DNA of 64,000 bases. It comes from Roseitranquillus sediminis (lineage in GTDB: Bacteria; Pseudomonadota; Alphaproteobacteria; Rhodobacterales; Rhodobacteraceae). The notes below the pieces were generated by a model. The model did no database searches and was not told the DNA's origin. It saw nothing but the letters and a program-made list of their open reading frames with translations. Both the position numbers and the translations under genes were made by a program. This document shows, in pieces, positions 29,008 to 37,291 of the stretch; positions within the stretch are counted from its first letter, which is position 1, and each line of letters starts with the position of its first letter. Where the stretch lies: positions 206,330 to 270,329 of the forward strand of contig NZ_JAFFOB010000025.1 of NCBI RefSeq assembly GCF_016918935.1, read 5' to 3'.

Positions 29008-29886
29008 CTAATCGCCGCCGAGCCTGCGACAAAGCTCGTCGAGCTGTTCCAGGGTGCGGTAGCGCAGGGTCAGGCGACCCCCATCATGCCCATCGTGTTC
29101 GATCGTGACCTTTAGACGGAGCGCGGCCGAAAGGTCCGCCTCGAGCGCCTTCGTGTCGGCGTCCTTGTCGGTCGCCTTCGCTTGCGGCGCCGACTTCCGC
29201 TCCATCGCGCCCTTCGCCAGCCGCTCCGTCTCGCGGACCGAGAGCCCCTTCGCAACCACCACTCGCGCCAGCGCGTCGGCGTCCGGTGAGGTGATCAGTG
29301 CGCGCGCGTGCCCGGCACTCAGTTCGCCATCACGAAGCAGCACTTGCACGCCTTCCGGCAACTGCAACAGCCGCAGGAGGTTGGCAATATGGCTGCGGCT
29401 CTTGCCGAGAGCCTCGGCCAGCCGCTCCTGGGTGTGGCCGAAGCTGTCCATCAGCTGACGGTAACCTGCCGCCTCCTCCACCGGGTTGAGGTCGGCGCGC
29501 TGGACGTTCTCGATGATCGCCACCTCCAGCACCTCGGTGTCGTCTAAGTCCCGGATGATTGCGGGCACGTCGTGCTGGCGCGCGAGCTGCGCAGCCCGCC
29601 ACCGGCGCTCGCCCGCGACGATCTGGAAGCTGCCGCGCCGCTCCGGGTGGGGCCGCAGGATCAGCGGCTGGACGACTCCCTTCTGGCGGATCGACGCCGC
29701 GAGATCGGCAAGCGCCTCCTCGGCGAAGTGGCGACGGGGCTGCCGCGGGTTCGGTTCGATCTGCTCGACCGGCACCCGGCGCACATCACGAGCATCCGTC
29801 GCATCGCTCTCGGGAGCGAGCGCGACGTCGGCCATCAGGGCGGACAAGCCGCGCCCGAGGCCACGCTGTTTCGGCTGTTCTGTCAT
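29008..29886 (-). CDS. parB: Chromosome partitioning protein ParB
   Basis: CTP-dependent DNA clamp (292 residues) that loads at parS and spreads, working with ParA to segregate the origin. The N-terminus RGLGRGLSALMADVA is the ParA-contacting tail; the CTPase region includes NPRQPRRHF and AGERRWRAAQLA; the helix-turn-helix is HTQERLAEALGKSRSHIANL; the C-terminal dimerisation domain ends RTLEQLDELCRRLGGD. It follows parA by 7 bases. Two perfect parS sites lie 1.4 and 3.3 kb upstream. Confidence 0.98.
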   Translation of the reverse strand: MTEQPKQRGLGRGLSALMADVALAPESDATDARDVRRVPVEQIEPNPRQPRRHFAEEALADLAASIRQKGVVQPLILRPHPERRGSFQIVAGERRWRAAQLARQHDVPAIIRDLDDTEVLEVAIIENVQRADLNPVEEAAGYRQLMDSFGHTQERLAEALGKSRSHIANLLRLLQLPEGVQVLLRDGELSAGHARALITSPDADALARVVVAKGLSVRETERLAKGAMERKSAPQAKATDKDADTKALEADLSAALRLKVTIEHDGHDGGRLTLRYRTLEQLDELCRRLGGD

Positions 29887-29893
29887 GCTCTTC

Positions 29894-30733
29894 TCATGAG
29901 GTTACGGGAACTTCTCGATGGACCAGTTCGCGCGCCAGCTCCCGATAGGCCGCGCTGCCTTTCGAGGCCGAGTCGTAGGTCAGGATAGGCATGGCAAAGG
30001 ACGGCGCTTCGCTGAGGCGGACGGTGCGGGGCACGACGGTGCGGAACACGAGCTCACCCAGATTCTCCCGCGCATCGCGTTCGACCTGCTGCGAAAGATT
30101 GTTGCGGCCGTCGAACATCGTCAGCAGCACCCCCTCGATCCGAAGGTCTGGATTGGCCCCTTGCCGCACCTCGCGCACCGTCAACATGAGCTGCGACAGC
30201 CCCTCAAGTGCGAAGAACTCGCTCTGGAGCGGGACGAGCACGGAATGTGCGGCTACGAGGGCGTTGATGGTGAGAAGGCTCAGCGATGGCGGGCAGTCGA
30301 TCAGGATGTAGTCGAGCCGGTAGCGCTCCATCGAGGACTGGCGCAGGGCGCGCTGGAGCAGAAACGATCGTTTCGCGTCCGCTGCCATATCGATGTCGGC
30401 GGAGCTGAGGTCGGTTGTGGACGGCGCGATAAGCAGGCCCTCCACCGATGATTCGACCACTATATTTTGTAGCGCTACTTGCCCAAACAACAATTCGTAG
30501 GTCGTCTGCGCCCGCTGGCCCAGCTCAATCCCAAGTCCGGTGGAAGCGTTACCTTGGGGATCGAGGTCCACGAGAAGGACGCGTCGACCGCTCTCGGCAA
30601 GCGCGGCACCGAGATTTATTGCAGTCGTCGTCTTCCCGACGCCGCCCTTTTGATTGGCGATCGCGATGATCCTCGGCCCGGGGCGCAAGCCCTCAGCGTC
30701 GGCGTAGCTCTCCGATCTCGAGAATGACGGCAT
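29894..30733 (-). CDS. parA: Chromosome partitioning ATPase ParA
   Basis: Deviant Walker-A ATPase (279 residues) forming the nucleoid-bound gradient that moves ParB-parS complexes. The motif IANQKGGVGKTTTAINLGAA holds the two Lys of the deviant P-loop; LLVDLDPQGNAS and YILIDCPPSLSLLTINAL follow. Its start overlaps the end of rsmG by 41 bases, so the pair is co-transcribed. It has the short N-terminal lead usual for chromosomal ParA, unlike the longer plasmid proteins. Confidence 0.98.
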   Translation of the reverse strand: MPSFSRSESYADAEGLRPGPRIIAIANQKGGVGKTTTAINLGAALAESGRRVLLVDLDPQGNASTGLGIELGQRAQTTYELLFGQVALQNIVVESSVEGLLIAPSTTDLSSADIDMAADAKRSFLLQRALRQSSMERYRLDYILIDCPPSLSLLTINALVAAHSVLVPLQSEFFALEGLSQLMLTVREVRQGANPDLRIEGVLLTMFDGRNNLSQQVERDARENLGELVFRTVVPRTVRLSEAPSFAMPILTYDSASKGSAAYRELARELVHREVPVTS

Positions 30734-31301
30734 CTGTGTTTGTTCTGCTCGGTACTGCCTCGATTAAAAGGTGCCACTCTTTGCGGGCGACCTCAACCTC
30801 TTCCCGCCATCCCGCTCCCTTCATCAGCAACGCTGTGCCGTTTTGCGCCAAGTGTCGCGATACGAGACCCAGAAGCCGCGGCAGGGGCGCCAGTGCGCGT
30901 GCCGATACGATGTCCGCCCCCTGGGGCGGCGCGGCCTCGATGCGATTGCAGATGATTTGGATCGGCAGATCTATTGCGCGCTGGACCGAACGCAGAAATT
31001 CTGCCTTCCGTCCGTCGCTCTCGATGCAGGTGACCTCGCGTGGCAATCCGTGTTCCTTCGCTAGGATTGCAACGACGATGCCAGGAAGGCCGCCGCCCGA
31101 GCCTAGATCAGTCCATCGACTCGCCTGCGGCAACCACGGTGCGAGCTGCACGCAGTCGGCCACGTGCCTCGTCCAGACCTGGCTAGACGTGATCGGCCGA
31201 CCAACGAGGTTTATCGCTGCATTCCACTTCAGGAGGTGGCGGACGTACAGGTCAAGGCGCTCAGATGTTTCACGTGAAACACCAAGCTCGTCAGGCCGCA
31301 T
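30693..31301 (-). CDS. rsmG: 16S rRNA (guanine527-N7)-methyltransferase
   Basis: SAM-dependent enzyme (202 residues) making m7G527 in 16S rRNA. The SAM-binding motif is [19 protein letters not shown]; the N-terminus has [19 protein letters not shown], typical of RsmG/GidB. ATG 31301 overlaps the mnmG end by 11 bases. Codons 8-12 (V-S-R-E-T) are part of a perfect parS palindrome, so the protein's N-terminal sequence is constrained by ParB binding. Confidence 0.97.
31266..31281. promoter_or_regulatory. parS centromere site 1
   Basis: A perfect 16-bp parS palindrome, TGTTTCACGTGAAACA, lying within the 5' end of rsmG and 10 bases from the end of mnmG. ParB is encoded 1.4 kb away. It matches the canonical bacterial parS exactly. 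Confidence 0.97.
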
Positions 31302-33162
31302 CGCGCCTCGACCGACGCAGGTGTCCCAAGATCAGCGTGAGCGCCGCGGGAGTGACACCTTCGATCCGCGCGGCTTGGGCGATGCTTGCTGGCCGGTGCG
31401 CGAGGAGCTTGTTGCGGATCTCGTTCGACAAGCCACCAAGCGCGGCGAAATCGAAGCCTTTCGGGATCAACATGGCTTCGTCGCGGCGAAGTATCTCCGC
31501 GTCCCGCGCCTGACGCTCGACATAGTTGCTGTAGATCGCTTCTCGCTTGAGCTGCTGTCGCGTTTCGGGATCGACCTCATTGAGCGACTGCTCCGCCTCT
31601 ACGAGTACTTCCCACTGGCATCCTGGTAGTGACAGGACCTGCAAGCCATTGCGCCGACTCCCGTCACTCGACATCATCAGTCCGGCTTCGGAGAGTTGGT
31701 TTGAGGTCAGACTCATCGCCTCTAGGCGTTCGCGCGCCCTCACCAACCGCTCCGACTTCGTGTCGAACGCGCGACGGCGGCTGTCAGACACGCAACCCAG
31801 TTCCACGGCAAGCGGTGTGAGGCGCTGATCGGCGTTGTCCGCTCGCAGCGAGAGACGGAATTCGGCGCGGGAAGTAAACATGCGATACGGCTCGGTCACG
31901 CCTCGCGCCGTCAGGTCGTCAATCATGACGCCGATGTAGCTGGTTGTCCTGCTGAAGCGCTGCTCCTCTCGACCCTGAGCGAAGAGCGCCGCATTCAGCC
32001 CGGCAACCAGACCTTGCGCGGCGGCCTCCTCATATCCCGTGGTCCCGTTGATCTGCCCCGCCAGATAAAGGCCGTTGACGCCTTTCAGCGACAACGTCAG
32101 GTCGAGACACCGAGGATCGACGTAATCGTACTCGATAGCGTAGCCGGGCCGCAGCACCTCCACCGTCTCAAGTCCGCAGATGGTCCTTAGGAACTCCAGC
32201 TGCACATCCTGCGGCAGTGAAGTGGAAATGCCGTTCGGATACACCGTATCATCATCAAGACCTTCTGGCTCCAAGAATATCTGGTGGGAGTCCTTGTCCG
32301 CGAAGCGGACGACCTTGTCCTCGATCGACGGACAGTATCGGGGTCCGGTGCCGCTGATGCGGCCGGCGTACATCGCCGATCTCGCCAGATTTTCTTGGAT
32401 GATCTGGTGCGTTAGAGCGTTGGTACTCGTGATCCCGCAGGACACCTGCCGGCACGATGTCGCCCGTGTCGCAAATGAGAGGAACTCCGGCTCCGCATCG
32501 CCTTCCTGCTCCACCACAGCCATCCAATCAATTGTCCGTCCGTCGAGGCGCGGAGGGGTCCCCGTCTTCAGTCGCCCGATTGCGCCGGCGACTTCACGGA
32601 CCTGCTGCGAAAGGCGGTTGGAAGCGGCCTCGCCCATGCGACCTCCGGCGATCGTCCTGTCGCCAATATGGATGACGCCTCCGAGGAAGGTGCCGGTCGT
32701 CAAGACGCAGCTCCGCCCGAACAGCTCGCGGCCGTCGGCGAGGCGAACCCCTCTGATTGCCGCATCGGTCAGCAGGAACTCCGTAACTTCGCCCTCGATG
32801 ACATCAATGTTTTGTCGGTTCGCGATCGCCTCCTGAATGGCCCTGGCATAGCGCTTGCGGTCCGACTGCGCTCGCGGACCCTGCACGGCGGGACCCTTGG
32901 AACGGTTCAACAGGCGAAAGTGGATCCCGGCATGGTCGGCGGCTCGCGCCATCACTCCATCCAGTGCGTCGATCTCTCGGACCAAGTGGCCCTTGCCCAG
33001 CCCGCCGATGGCAGGATTGCAGGACATCGCACCAAGCGCGCCGCGCTTCATCGTTACGAGAGCAACGGAGGCCCCAAGGCGCGCAGCCGCGTCCGCCGCC
33101 TCAACGCCCGCATGGCCGCCACCCACCACAATCGTGTCGTACGAGTGTTTCACGTGAAACAT
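31291..33162 (-). CDS. mnmG: tRNA uridine 5-carboxymethylaminomethyl modification enzyme MnmG
   Basis: FAD-binding partner of MnmE (623 residues) in synthesis of cmnm5U at the wobble position of several tRNAs. The FAD motif is [32 protein letters not shown] and the two conserved cysteine regions (for example [15 protein letters not shown]) are present, and the C-terminal helical domain ends with [19 protein letters not shown] 33162 overlaps the mnmE stop (TGATG); a GTG one codon earlier is possible. Its first codons, MFHVKH, are written in a parS site. Confidence 0.98.
33146..33161. promoter_or_regulatory. parS centromere site 2
   Basis: A second perfect parS, TGTTTCACGTGAAACA, forming the first codons of mnmG. 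It lies 1.9 kb from site 1 and about 3.2 kb from the candidate oriC, as expected for an origin-proximal centromere. Confidence 0.97.
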
Positions 33163-35844: not shown

Positions 35845-36294
35845 TCAGAACTTCACGATAACCGACACCACGATGACCACGAGGAAGACCGTGGGGACCT
35901 CGTTCATGATACGATACCCCCGACCGCTCACCTTGTTCGCGCCCTGGGCCAAGTCACGGCGCCGCCAACCAAGCCAATGGTGAAACCAGGTCAGCGACAG
36001 CACGCCAGTCGCCTTCGTCCACGGCCAGAGCGAGCCCCAGTCGACGACTCCCGGCGTCAGGACCAGCATCAGCCCGAAGAACCAGGTCGCGATCATGGCG
36101 GGGTTCATGATCAGGCGGAGCAGTTTCCGCTCCATCGTCTCGAATAGATCCGCAGTCGGACCGGACTGCCCGGCCGCCTCTACGTGATAAACGAAGAGCC
36201 GTGGCAGATAGAACAGCCCCGCCATCCAGGTCACCATCGAGATCACGTGCAGGGCCTTGGTCCACGGATAGAGCCAAGAGAGAAGATCGTACAC
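35845..36294 (-). CDS. hemJ: Protoporphyrinogen IX oxidase HemJ
   Basis: Four-helix haem-b membrane protein (149 residues) oxidising protoporphyrinogen IX in haem biosynthesis. Features are the N-terminal YPWTKALHVISMVTWMAGLF with the conserved His, LPRLFVYHVEA, LRLIMNPAMIATWFFGLML, and WFHHWLGWRRR. GTG 36294 has GGAGG 8 bases upstream. It is the last leftward gene before the candidate oriC; hemJ/hemE-type genes flank the origin in several alphaproteobacteria. Confidence 0.94.
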   Translation of the reverse strand: MYDLLSWLYPWTKALHVISMVTWMAGLFYLPRLFVYHVEAAGQSGPTADLFETMERKLLRLIMNPAMIATWFFGLMLVLTPGVVDWGSLWPWTKATGVLSLTWFHHWLGWRRRDLAQGANKVSGRGYRIMNEVPTVFLVVIVVSVIVKF

Positions 36295-36688
36295 GCGGCT
36301 GCCTCCAGACGGGTTCTCTGTTACAAGACAATGAGAGAGAAGGAGATGATGATGTTTAAGAACGGTGGACGATGTGGATCATTGTCTTGTCCCGCGTCTC
36401 GTCCACAAGAGGCGCGGCGTTGAGAAGTTGGGCGTTCCGTCCCGCGGAAAATAGGATTATCAAGTATCCTCAGAGCGTTGCAAGGCAAAGTGCTGTGGAT
36501 AATCATGTGGACAGTAACGGCCTCAGCCGAGAGTGCCGCACTGTCCACATGATCCGGTGCGACATTGCACACGGTGGAGATCACCAGTGCGCGACACGGT
36601 CGGCTGCTCGGTTTTTCCCGCTGGTCCCGGCGGGGCTCGCGTTTCGGCAAGTGCTGCAGCGCCTGTTCGACTGGTTGTCCACAGAACC
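36295..36688. other. Candidate chromosomal replication origin (oriC)
   Basis: A 394-base non-coding gap where gene direction switches from leftward to rightward. DnaA boxes: a perfect TTATCCACA (minus strand, 36494-36502); TTGTCCACA (plus, 36675-36683) and TGATCCACA (minus, 36373-36381), each one base off; CTGTCCACA twice (minus 36506-36514, plus 36541-36549); TCGTCCACA (plus, 36399-36407). Two long perfect inverted repeats frame them: 12 bp ACAAGACAATGA (36323-36334) / TCATTGTCTTGT (36379-36390), and 13 bp ATCATGTGGACAG (36502-36514) / CTGTCCACATGAT (36541-36553). The most AT-rich tract is about 36447-36470. Neighbourhood (parAB, parS, hemJ, maf) fits alphaproteobacterial origins. No GANTC methylation site was seen in it. 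Confidence 0.8.
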
Positions 36689-37291
36689 ATGCAGATGAGC
36701 CCCGTGATCCTTGCCTCGGGTTCCGTCGCACGCGCTCGCCTGCTGCGGGATGCAGGGGTACAATTCGAGGTTGAGCGGCCGCGCGTGGATGAGGAGGCAA
36801 TCCGTCGCTCGCTCTCGGCCGGCGGCACCTCGCCGCGCGACATCGCCGATGCCCTTGCCGAGGCGAAGGCCCTGAAGGTCACGTCGCGGCGGCCCGACGC
36901 CTTGGTCGTCGGATCGGATCAGCTCCTTGAGTTCAATGGCGCGCTTCTCTCGAAGCCGCGCCATCCGAAAGACGCGCTGGCGCAGCTGCACGCGCTGGCG
37001 GGCGGGCGACACACGCTCTACACCGCCGCTGTCGTCTGCGAGGCGGGGACGCCGGTCTGGCGATACGTCTCGGAAGTCCGCCTGCAGATGCGACCGGCGT
37101 CGGAGGCGTATCTCGCCTCTTACGTCGAGCGCCTGTGGGACGAAATCCGCGACTGCGTCGGCTGCTACCGCATCGAGGGCGAGGGAGTGCGGCTTTTCGA
37201 CCGCATCGACGGAGATCTTTTTGCGGTTCAGGGGCTTCCGCTGATCCAGCTGTTGTCGTGGCTGTCGCTTCGCGGCAGCCTTCCGGCATGA
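36689..37291 (+). CDS. maf: Maf-family nucleotide pyrophosphatase
   Basis: House-cleaning nucleoside triphosphate pyrophosphatase (200 residues) of the Maf/YhdE/YceF group. The signature VILASGSVARARLLRDAG is a variant of ASxSPRR, and the catalytic region DALVVGSDQLLEFNG and LSKPRHPKDALAQL follow, with WDEIRDCVGCYRIEGEGVRL near the end. No good ribosome site precedes ATG 36689 or the alternative ATG 36695; a DnaA-box-like TTGTCCACA ends 5 bases before the start. First of four rightward genes leaving the origin; its stop overlaps aroE (ATGA). Confidence 0.93.
   Translation: MQMSPVILASGSVARARLLRDAGVQFEVERPRVDEEAIRRSLSAGGTSPRDIADALAEAKALKVTSRRPDALVVGSDQLLEFNGALLSKPRHPKDALAQLHALAGGRHTLYTAAVVCEAGTPVWRYVSEVRLQMRPASEAYLASYVERLWDEIRDCVGCYRIEGEGVRLFDRIDGDLFAVQGLPLIQLLSWLSLRGSLPA

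Follow-up and report, generated by a model that had tools for sequence, protein, structure and literature searches.

A very probable chromosomal origin between hemJ and maf in Roseitranquillus sediminis, with a candidate deviant DnaA-trio array

The window analysed here, a stretch of 64,000 nucleotides from the Rhodobacteraceae bacterium Roseitranquillus sediminis, lies within a 322-kb contig of a draft assembly (3.73 Mb, 37 contigs) and includes a gap of 394 bp from which hemJ and maf are transcribed divergently (Table 1). The neighbouring genes run rho-mnmE-mnmG-rsmG-parA-parB on one side and maf-aroE on the other; dnaA itself is 98 kb from the gap, and a dnaA gene far from oriC is usual for alphaproteobacteria. 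A sequence-only reading of this DNA had described diverging transcription around the gap, one perfect DnaA box, two sites with a single mismatch and further near matches within it, and parAB with two parS sites 3-7 kb away. Each of these observations was confirmed, the boxes by a mismatch scan and the partition genes by their position at 29008-30733 beside two perfect copies of parS. These copies are the only two parS sites in the whole genome, and they lie left of the gap, at distances of 3.1 and 5.0 kb. Rfam gave no match to an RNA element within the gap.

On every count used, the gap is the densest cluster of DnaA boxes in the 322-kb contig. It contains three sites with at most one mismatch, seven with at most two and six TCCACA cores, compared with one, four and two in the next-best 394-bp stretch, and the whole 3.73-Mb draft has only two copies of the exact 9-mer TTATCCACA. 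In 125 of the 127 distinct Rhodobacteraceae relatives the same divergent gene pair encloses a gap of 354-477 bp, and box cores recur across these gaps at shared aligned positions, corresponding to 36373 (-), 36402 (+), 36495 (-), 36544 (+) and 36678 (+). Read from the hemJ side, the gap presents first an A-rich stretch and then a trinucleotide array, followed by two left-pointing boxes (the first of them degenerate in R. sediminis), a right-pointing box, an IHF-like site, two central boxes in inverted orientation and a last box right before maf. The A-rich unwinding stretch, clear in the family, is weak here, at 59% AT against a family median of 82%, making it the third lowest of 125. At the IHF-like position, 49 sites in the family match WATCAANNNNTTR with at most one mismatch at a single aligned column, with the unwinding module on one side of it and the central boxes on the other. 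GANTC (CcrM) sites are absent from the gap of R. sediminis, and at least one is present in 66% of the relatives.

Table 1. Positions of the genes and sequence features at and near the hemJ-maf gap, numbered from the first letter of the window.
Feature	Position	Strand	Basis or remark
parB	29008-29886	-	profile search
parA	29894-30733	-	ParA-type ATPase models, none above cut-off; adjoins parB
parS TGTTTCACGTGAAACA, perfect	31266-31281		motif scan
parS TGTTTCACGTGAAACA, perfect	33146-33161		motif scan
hemJ	35845-36294	-	TIGR00701 above cut-off
oriC (very probable), intergenic gap between divergent hemJ and maf	36295-36688		394 bp
A-rich unwinding stretch of the family	36317-36345		family alignment
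12-bp perfect inverted repeat, left arm	36323-36334	+	inside unwinding stretch; loop 44
Trinucleotide array GAG-ATG-ATG-ATG-TTT-AAG	36343-36360	+	DnaA-trio position; family alignment
DnaA box TGATCCACA, one mismatch (T to G at base 2)	36373-36381	-	family-conserved position
12-bp perfect inverted repeat, right arm	36379-36390	-	overlaps end of TGATCCACA box
DnaA box TCGTCCACA, two mismatches	36399-36407	+	core in 54/125 relatives, position conserved
DnaA box, two mismatches	36464	+	mismatch scan
IHF-like site position, family-wide (WATCAANNNNTTR)	36468-36480	+	degenerate here, 3 mismatches
DnaA box TTATCCACA, perfect	36494-36502	-	consensus match
14-bp perfect inverted repeat, left arm	36502-36515	+	loop 24
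DnaA box CTGTCCACA, two mismatches, in left arm of 14-bp repeat	36506-36514	-	rare, about 10/125 relatives
14-bp perfect inverted repeat, right arm	36540-36553	-	loop 24
DnaA box CTGTCCACA, two mismatches, in right arm of 14-bp repeat	36541-36549	+	core in 41/125 relatives
DnaA box TTGTCCACA, one mismatch, just before maf	36675-36683	+	core in 49/125 relatives
maf	36689-37291	+	TIGR00172 above cut-off

The trinucleotide array was not among the observations of the sequence-only reading, and it is present family-wide in a fixed register with the consensus AAG-ATG-ATG-WTG-WTG-TAG. When the register is set by the box-proximal TAG and counts are taken from the alignment of the 125 relatives, the third base of the five box-adjacent trios is G in 87, 98, 56, 77 and 90% of cases; T occupies the middle position in 74, 89, 74 and 76% for the first four trios, and the last, which is mostly TAG, has A there in 77%. 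Across the same alignment ATG, TTG, TGG, TAG and AAG interchange in register, mostly without frame shifts. In this register the R. sediminis array has a middle T in its three ATG trios and in TTT, and a spacer of 12 bp (36361-36372) separates it from the first good box, within the 0-16 bp of the trio-to-box criterion. The DnaA-trio has been described with the consensus 3'-GAT-5' (5'-TAG-3'), a middle adenine and a spacer length peaking at 10-13 bp; trios are missing in 15% of genomes, and the authors suspected that deviant motifs without the middle adenine exist (PMC8287927). The present array occupies the position of DnaA-trios at their usual spacing, and its T-middle trios fit the 'deviant trio' suspected by the discoverers of the system.

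The DnaA protein bears upon how such an array might be read. In Bacillus subtilis the middle base is A, C also works and T is poor, giving weaker opening both in vitro and in vivo, and it is Asn187 that contacts the middle base (PMC10721633). Conservation of the trio-reading residues is not universal (PMC10721633). In an alignment with the B. subtilis protein of 8BTG, the DnaA of R. sediminis has Tyr187, Val190, Leu193, Lys196 and Lys202 and keeps Glu183, Lys222 and Glu228, such that the trio-reading set of Asn187, Arg202 and Glu228 is represented by Tyr, Lys and Glu. Among 57 DnaAs, nearly every one from a different alphaproteobacterial family, 46 have Tyr187 and the other 11 have N, F, H, R, S or T at this position. 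From this comparative evidence we infer that the array would be bound by DnaA, in the register that the box-proximal TAG suggests. We would put at a little short of an even chance, and so offer tentatively, the broader notion of a deviant DnaA-trio at alphaproteobacterial origins, 5'-NTG-3' and capped by TAG, which DnaA would read through a Tyr in place of Asn187, the two having coevolved as a single-strand opening code. Together, the family-wide T-middle array and a DnaA without that Asn offer a concrete, testable case in which base and residue are both named, and the array is the part of this locus that is worth an experiment.

A possible alternative, though less likely than not, is that the array is simply a tract rich in purines or easily bent, or that it should be read as GAT-GAT-GAT with a middle A, and that it is not a DnaA-binding element of the kind considered above. 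The GAT register yields three NAN trios in R. sediminis, and the published (NAN)x3 rule is satisfied in some register by 44 of the 125 relatives; at least three middle-A trios (3'-NAN-5') beside a box, which is the canonical criterion, occur here only in a shifted register and not in the one set by TAG. Against this alternative stand the TAG-anchored preference for G at the third base (56-98%) and for T in the middle of the first four trios (74-89%), and the swapping of trio variants in place, mostly without a shift in frame. The occurrence of such arrays elsewhere also speaks against it: among 53 maf-upstream regions of other alphaproteobacterial families, in which arrays were chosen only by a G at the third base, AT-rich sequence to the left and a box coming after, 12 contain one, compared with 0.6 in shuffles, and the strand is the same in 11 of the 12. 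The middle bases outside the Rhodobacteraceae (T 30, G 22, A 21, C 1) are such that this position looks relaxed there, and not fixed to T. Two loci from these other families, L259 (G360) and L276 (G340), carry very regular arrays, AAG-(ATG)x5-TAG and (TTG)x6, beside DnaA-box-like sites. In the open-access literature searched, a single paper combines the DnaA-trio, alphaproteobacteria and oriC, and it concerns epsilonproteobacteria.

The gap also contains two long inverted repeats. One, previously given as a 13-bp repeat, is indeed perfect and does embed paired boxes, but its arms are 14 bp long. For the other, of 12 bp, the coordinates proved exact, whereas the claim that it brackets a box is not clean, as the final 3 bases of the TGATCCACA box fall within the right arm; the repeat surrounds the trinucleotide array and the first boxes. 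When the gap is shuffled, arms of at least 12 bp arise in 7 of 3000 cases and arms of at least 14 bp in 0 of 3000, and the 14-bp repeat ranks second in length across the contig. Relatives have inverted boxes in the centre without this perfect 14-bp match, which exists here because of an additional box at 36506 that only about 10 of 125 share.

Given their rarity in shuffles, one might consider these palindromes to be regulator-binding sites or cruciform elements with a function of their own, but we regard this as unlikely. Among 125 homologous stretches, the central one of R. sediminis folds into the most stable hairpin (z -6.4), yet the family mean z is only -0.8, and among the relatives the arms score little better in their own pairing than when swapped between species. 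For the 12-bp arms these values are 4.77 vs 4.65 (p 0.06, relatives without this genome and its near-duplicates; p 0.007 with this genome included), and for the central-box arms 5.32 vs 5.08 (p 0.02, relatives without this genome), a difference which the inverted DnaA boxes account for. Control stretches gave no signal in this test, and so the weak p value for the 12-bp bracket was not counted as evidence. Neither the 12-bp nor the 14-mer arm sequence has another exact occurrence in the genome. We rejected the palindromes as conserved family elements, given that arm-swapping, folding and alignment find that the relatives do not keep them, and likewise the 12-bp arms as a reused operator, given that they do not recur exactly in the genome. 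The proposal of additional initiator or regulator sites at the palindromes stands to the extent that the 14-bp repeat adds a DnaA box and forms an inverted pair; since the 12-bp arms are unique in the genome and relatives do not retain them, there is no sign of a dedicated regulator. The 14-bp palindrome consists of two inverted DnaA boxes, a pair specific to this lineage, and, at a guess made with low confidence, the 12-bp palindrome could help to open, or to keep open, an unusually GC-rich unwinding stretch. Both palindromes are real and beyond chance, and they are lineage-specific and probably minor.

The suggestion that oriC lies between hemJ and maf is supported by the density of boxes, the position of parS, the synteny of the 125 relatives and, in a relative with a complete genome, the skew minimum. 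In that relative (G003), with cumulative GC skew sampled every 90 kb, the minimum falls between the 3.42 and 3.51 Mb samples, with hemJ at 3.477 Mb, and the maximum is at about 1.5 Mb, about half a genome away; the skew of the R. sediminis 322-kb contig itself is noisy and weakly consistent with oriC, with its minimum about 17.5 kb from the gap. We conclude that the hemJ-maf gap is almost certainly the chromosomal origin of this Rhodobacteraceae bacterium. That the boxes instead form a DnaA-controlled divergent hemJ/maf promoter or a DnaA-titrating cluster, with the origin elsewhere, is very improbable: divergent genes do border the gap and DnaA boxes are known in promoters, but gap length and box layout are conserved in 125 relatives, a promoter needs neither the A-rich stretch nor the trinucleotide array, and both parS sites and the relative's skew minimum adjoin or coincide with the gap. 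As an oriC the locus is ordinary in position and in box layout, the layout being common to the family, and it is mainly of use for anchoring the draft genome.

A sequence of events can be proposed for this origin. DnaA-ATP would bind first to the strong central box at 36494 and to the weaker boxes to its right, at 36541 and 36675, and next to the pair by the A-rich stretch, which consists of the box at 36373 and the degenerate box preceding it. From this pair a DnaA filament might extend along one strand of the array (36343-36360), and the duplex would open towards hemJ, into the A-rich stretch. IHF bending at 36468 would probably assist in the relatives, and less so in R. sediminis, and ParB at both parS sites would then separate the new origins.

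Among known systems, the origins predicted by Ori-Finder for Rhodobacteraceae (PMC6699656) and for other alphaproteobacteria (PMC3794950) are likewise described, in the sections considered here, as DnaA-box clusters in an intergenic or low-GC region, and one was also noted to have two palindromic repeats (PMC3794950). The same sections give gidA, hemE and maf as indicator genes for such predictions (PMC3794950); they locate the origin, mostly via E. coli-type boxes, and give no description of the family's box layout or of the array. One of three 'DnaA box' motifs listed there for Rhodobacteraceae is TGTTTCACG (PMC6699656), which matches exactly a part of the parS palindrome TGTTTCACGTGAAACA, and searches with this motif may be picking up parS and not DnaA boxes. 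The box TGATCCACA carries the T-to-G change that defines the G-boxes of Caulobacter crescentus Cori (PMC4468827). Unlike Cori, the hemJ-maf gap has a perfect consensus box and lacks a CtrA site, and a Caulobacter-type, CtrA-regulated origin was rejected given that TTAA-N7-TTAA is absent from the gap. The gap is also similar in plan to the basal unwinding system of B. subtilis, with its boxes, spacer of about 12 bp, G-ended trinucleotide repeat and AT-rich stretch (PMC8287927, PMC10721633), the last of these being weak in R. sediminis, and the box-proximal trio of the Rhodobacteraceae is TAG, as in B. subtilis. In contrast with that system, a middle T replaces A in four of the five trios, and DnaA has Tyr for Asn187 and Lys for Arg202.
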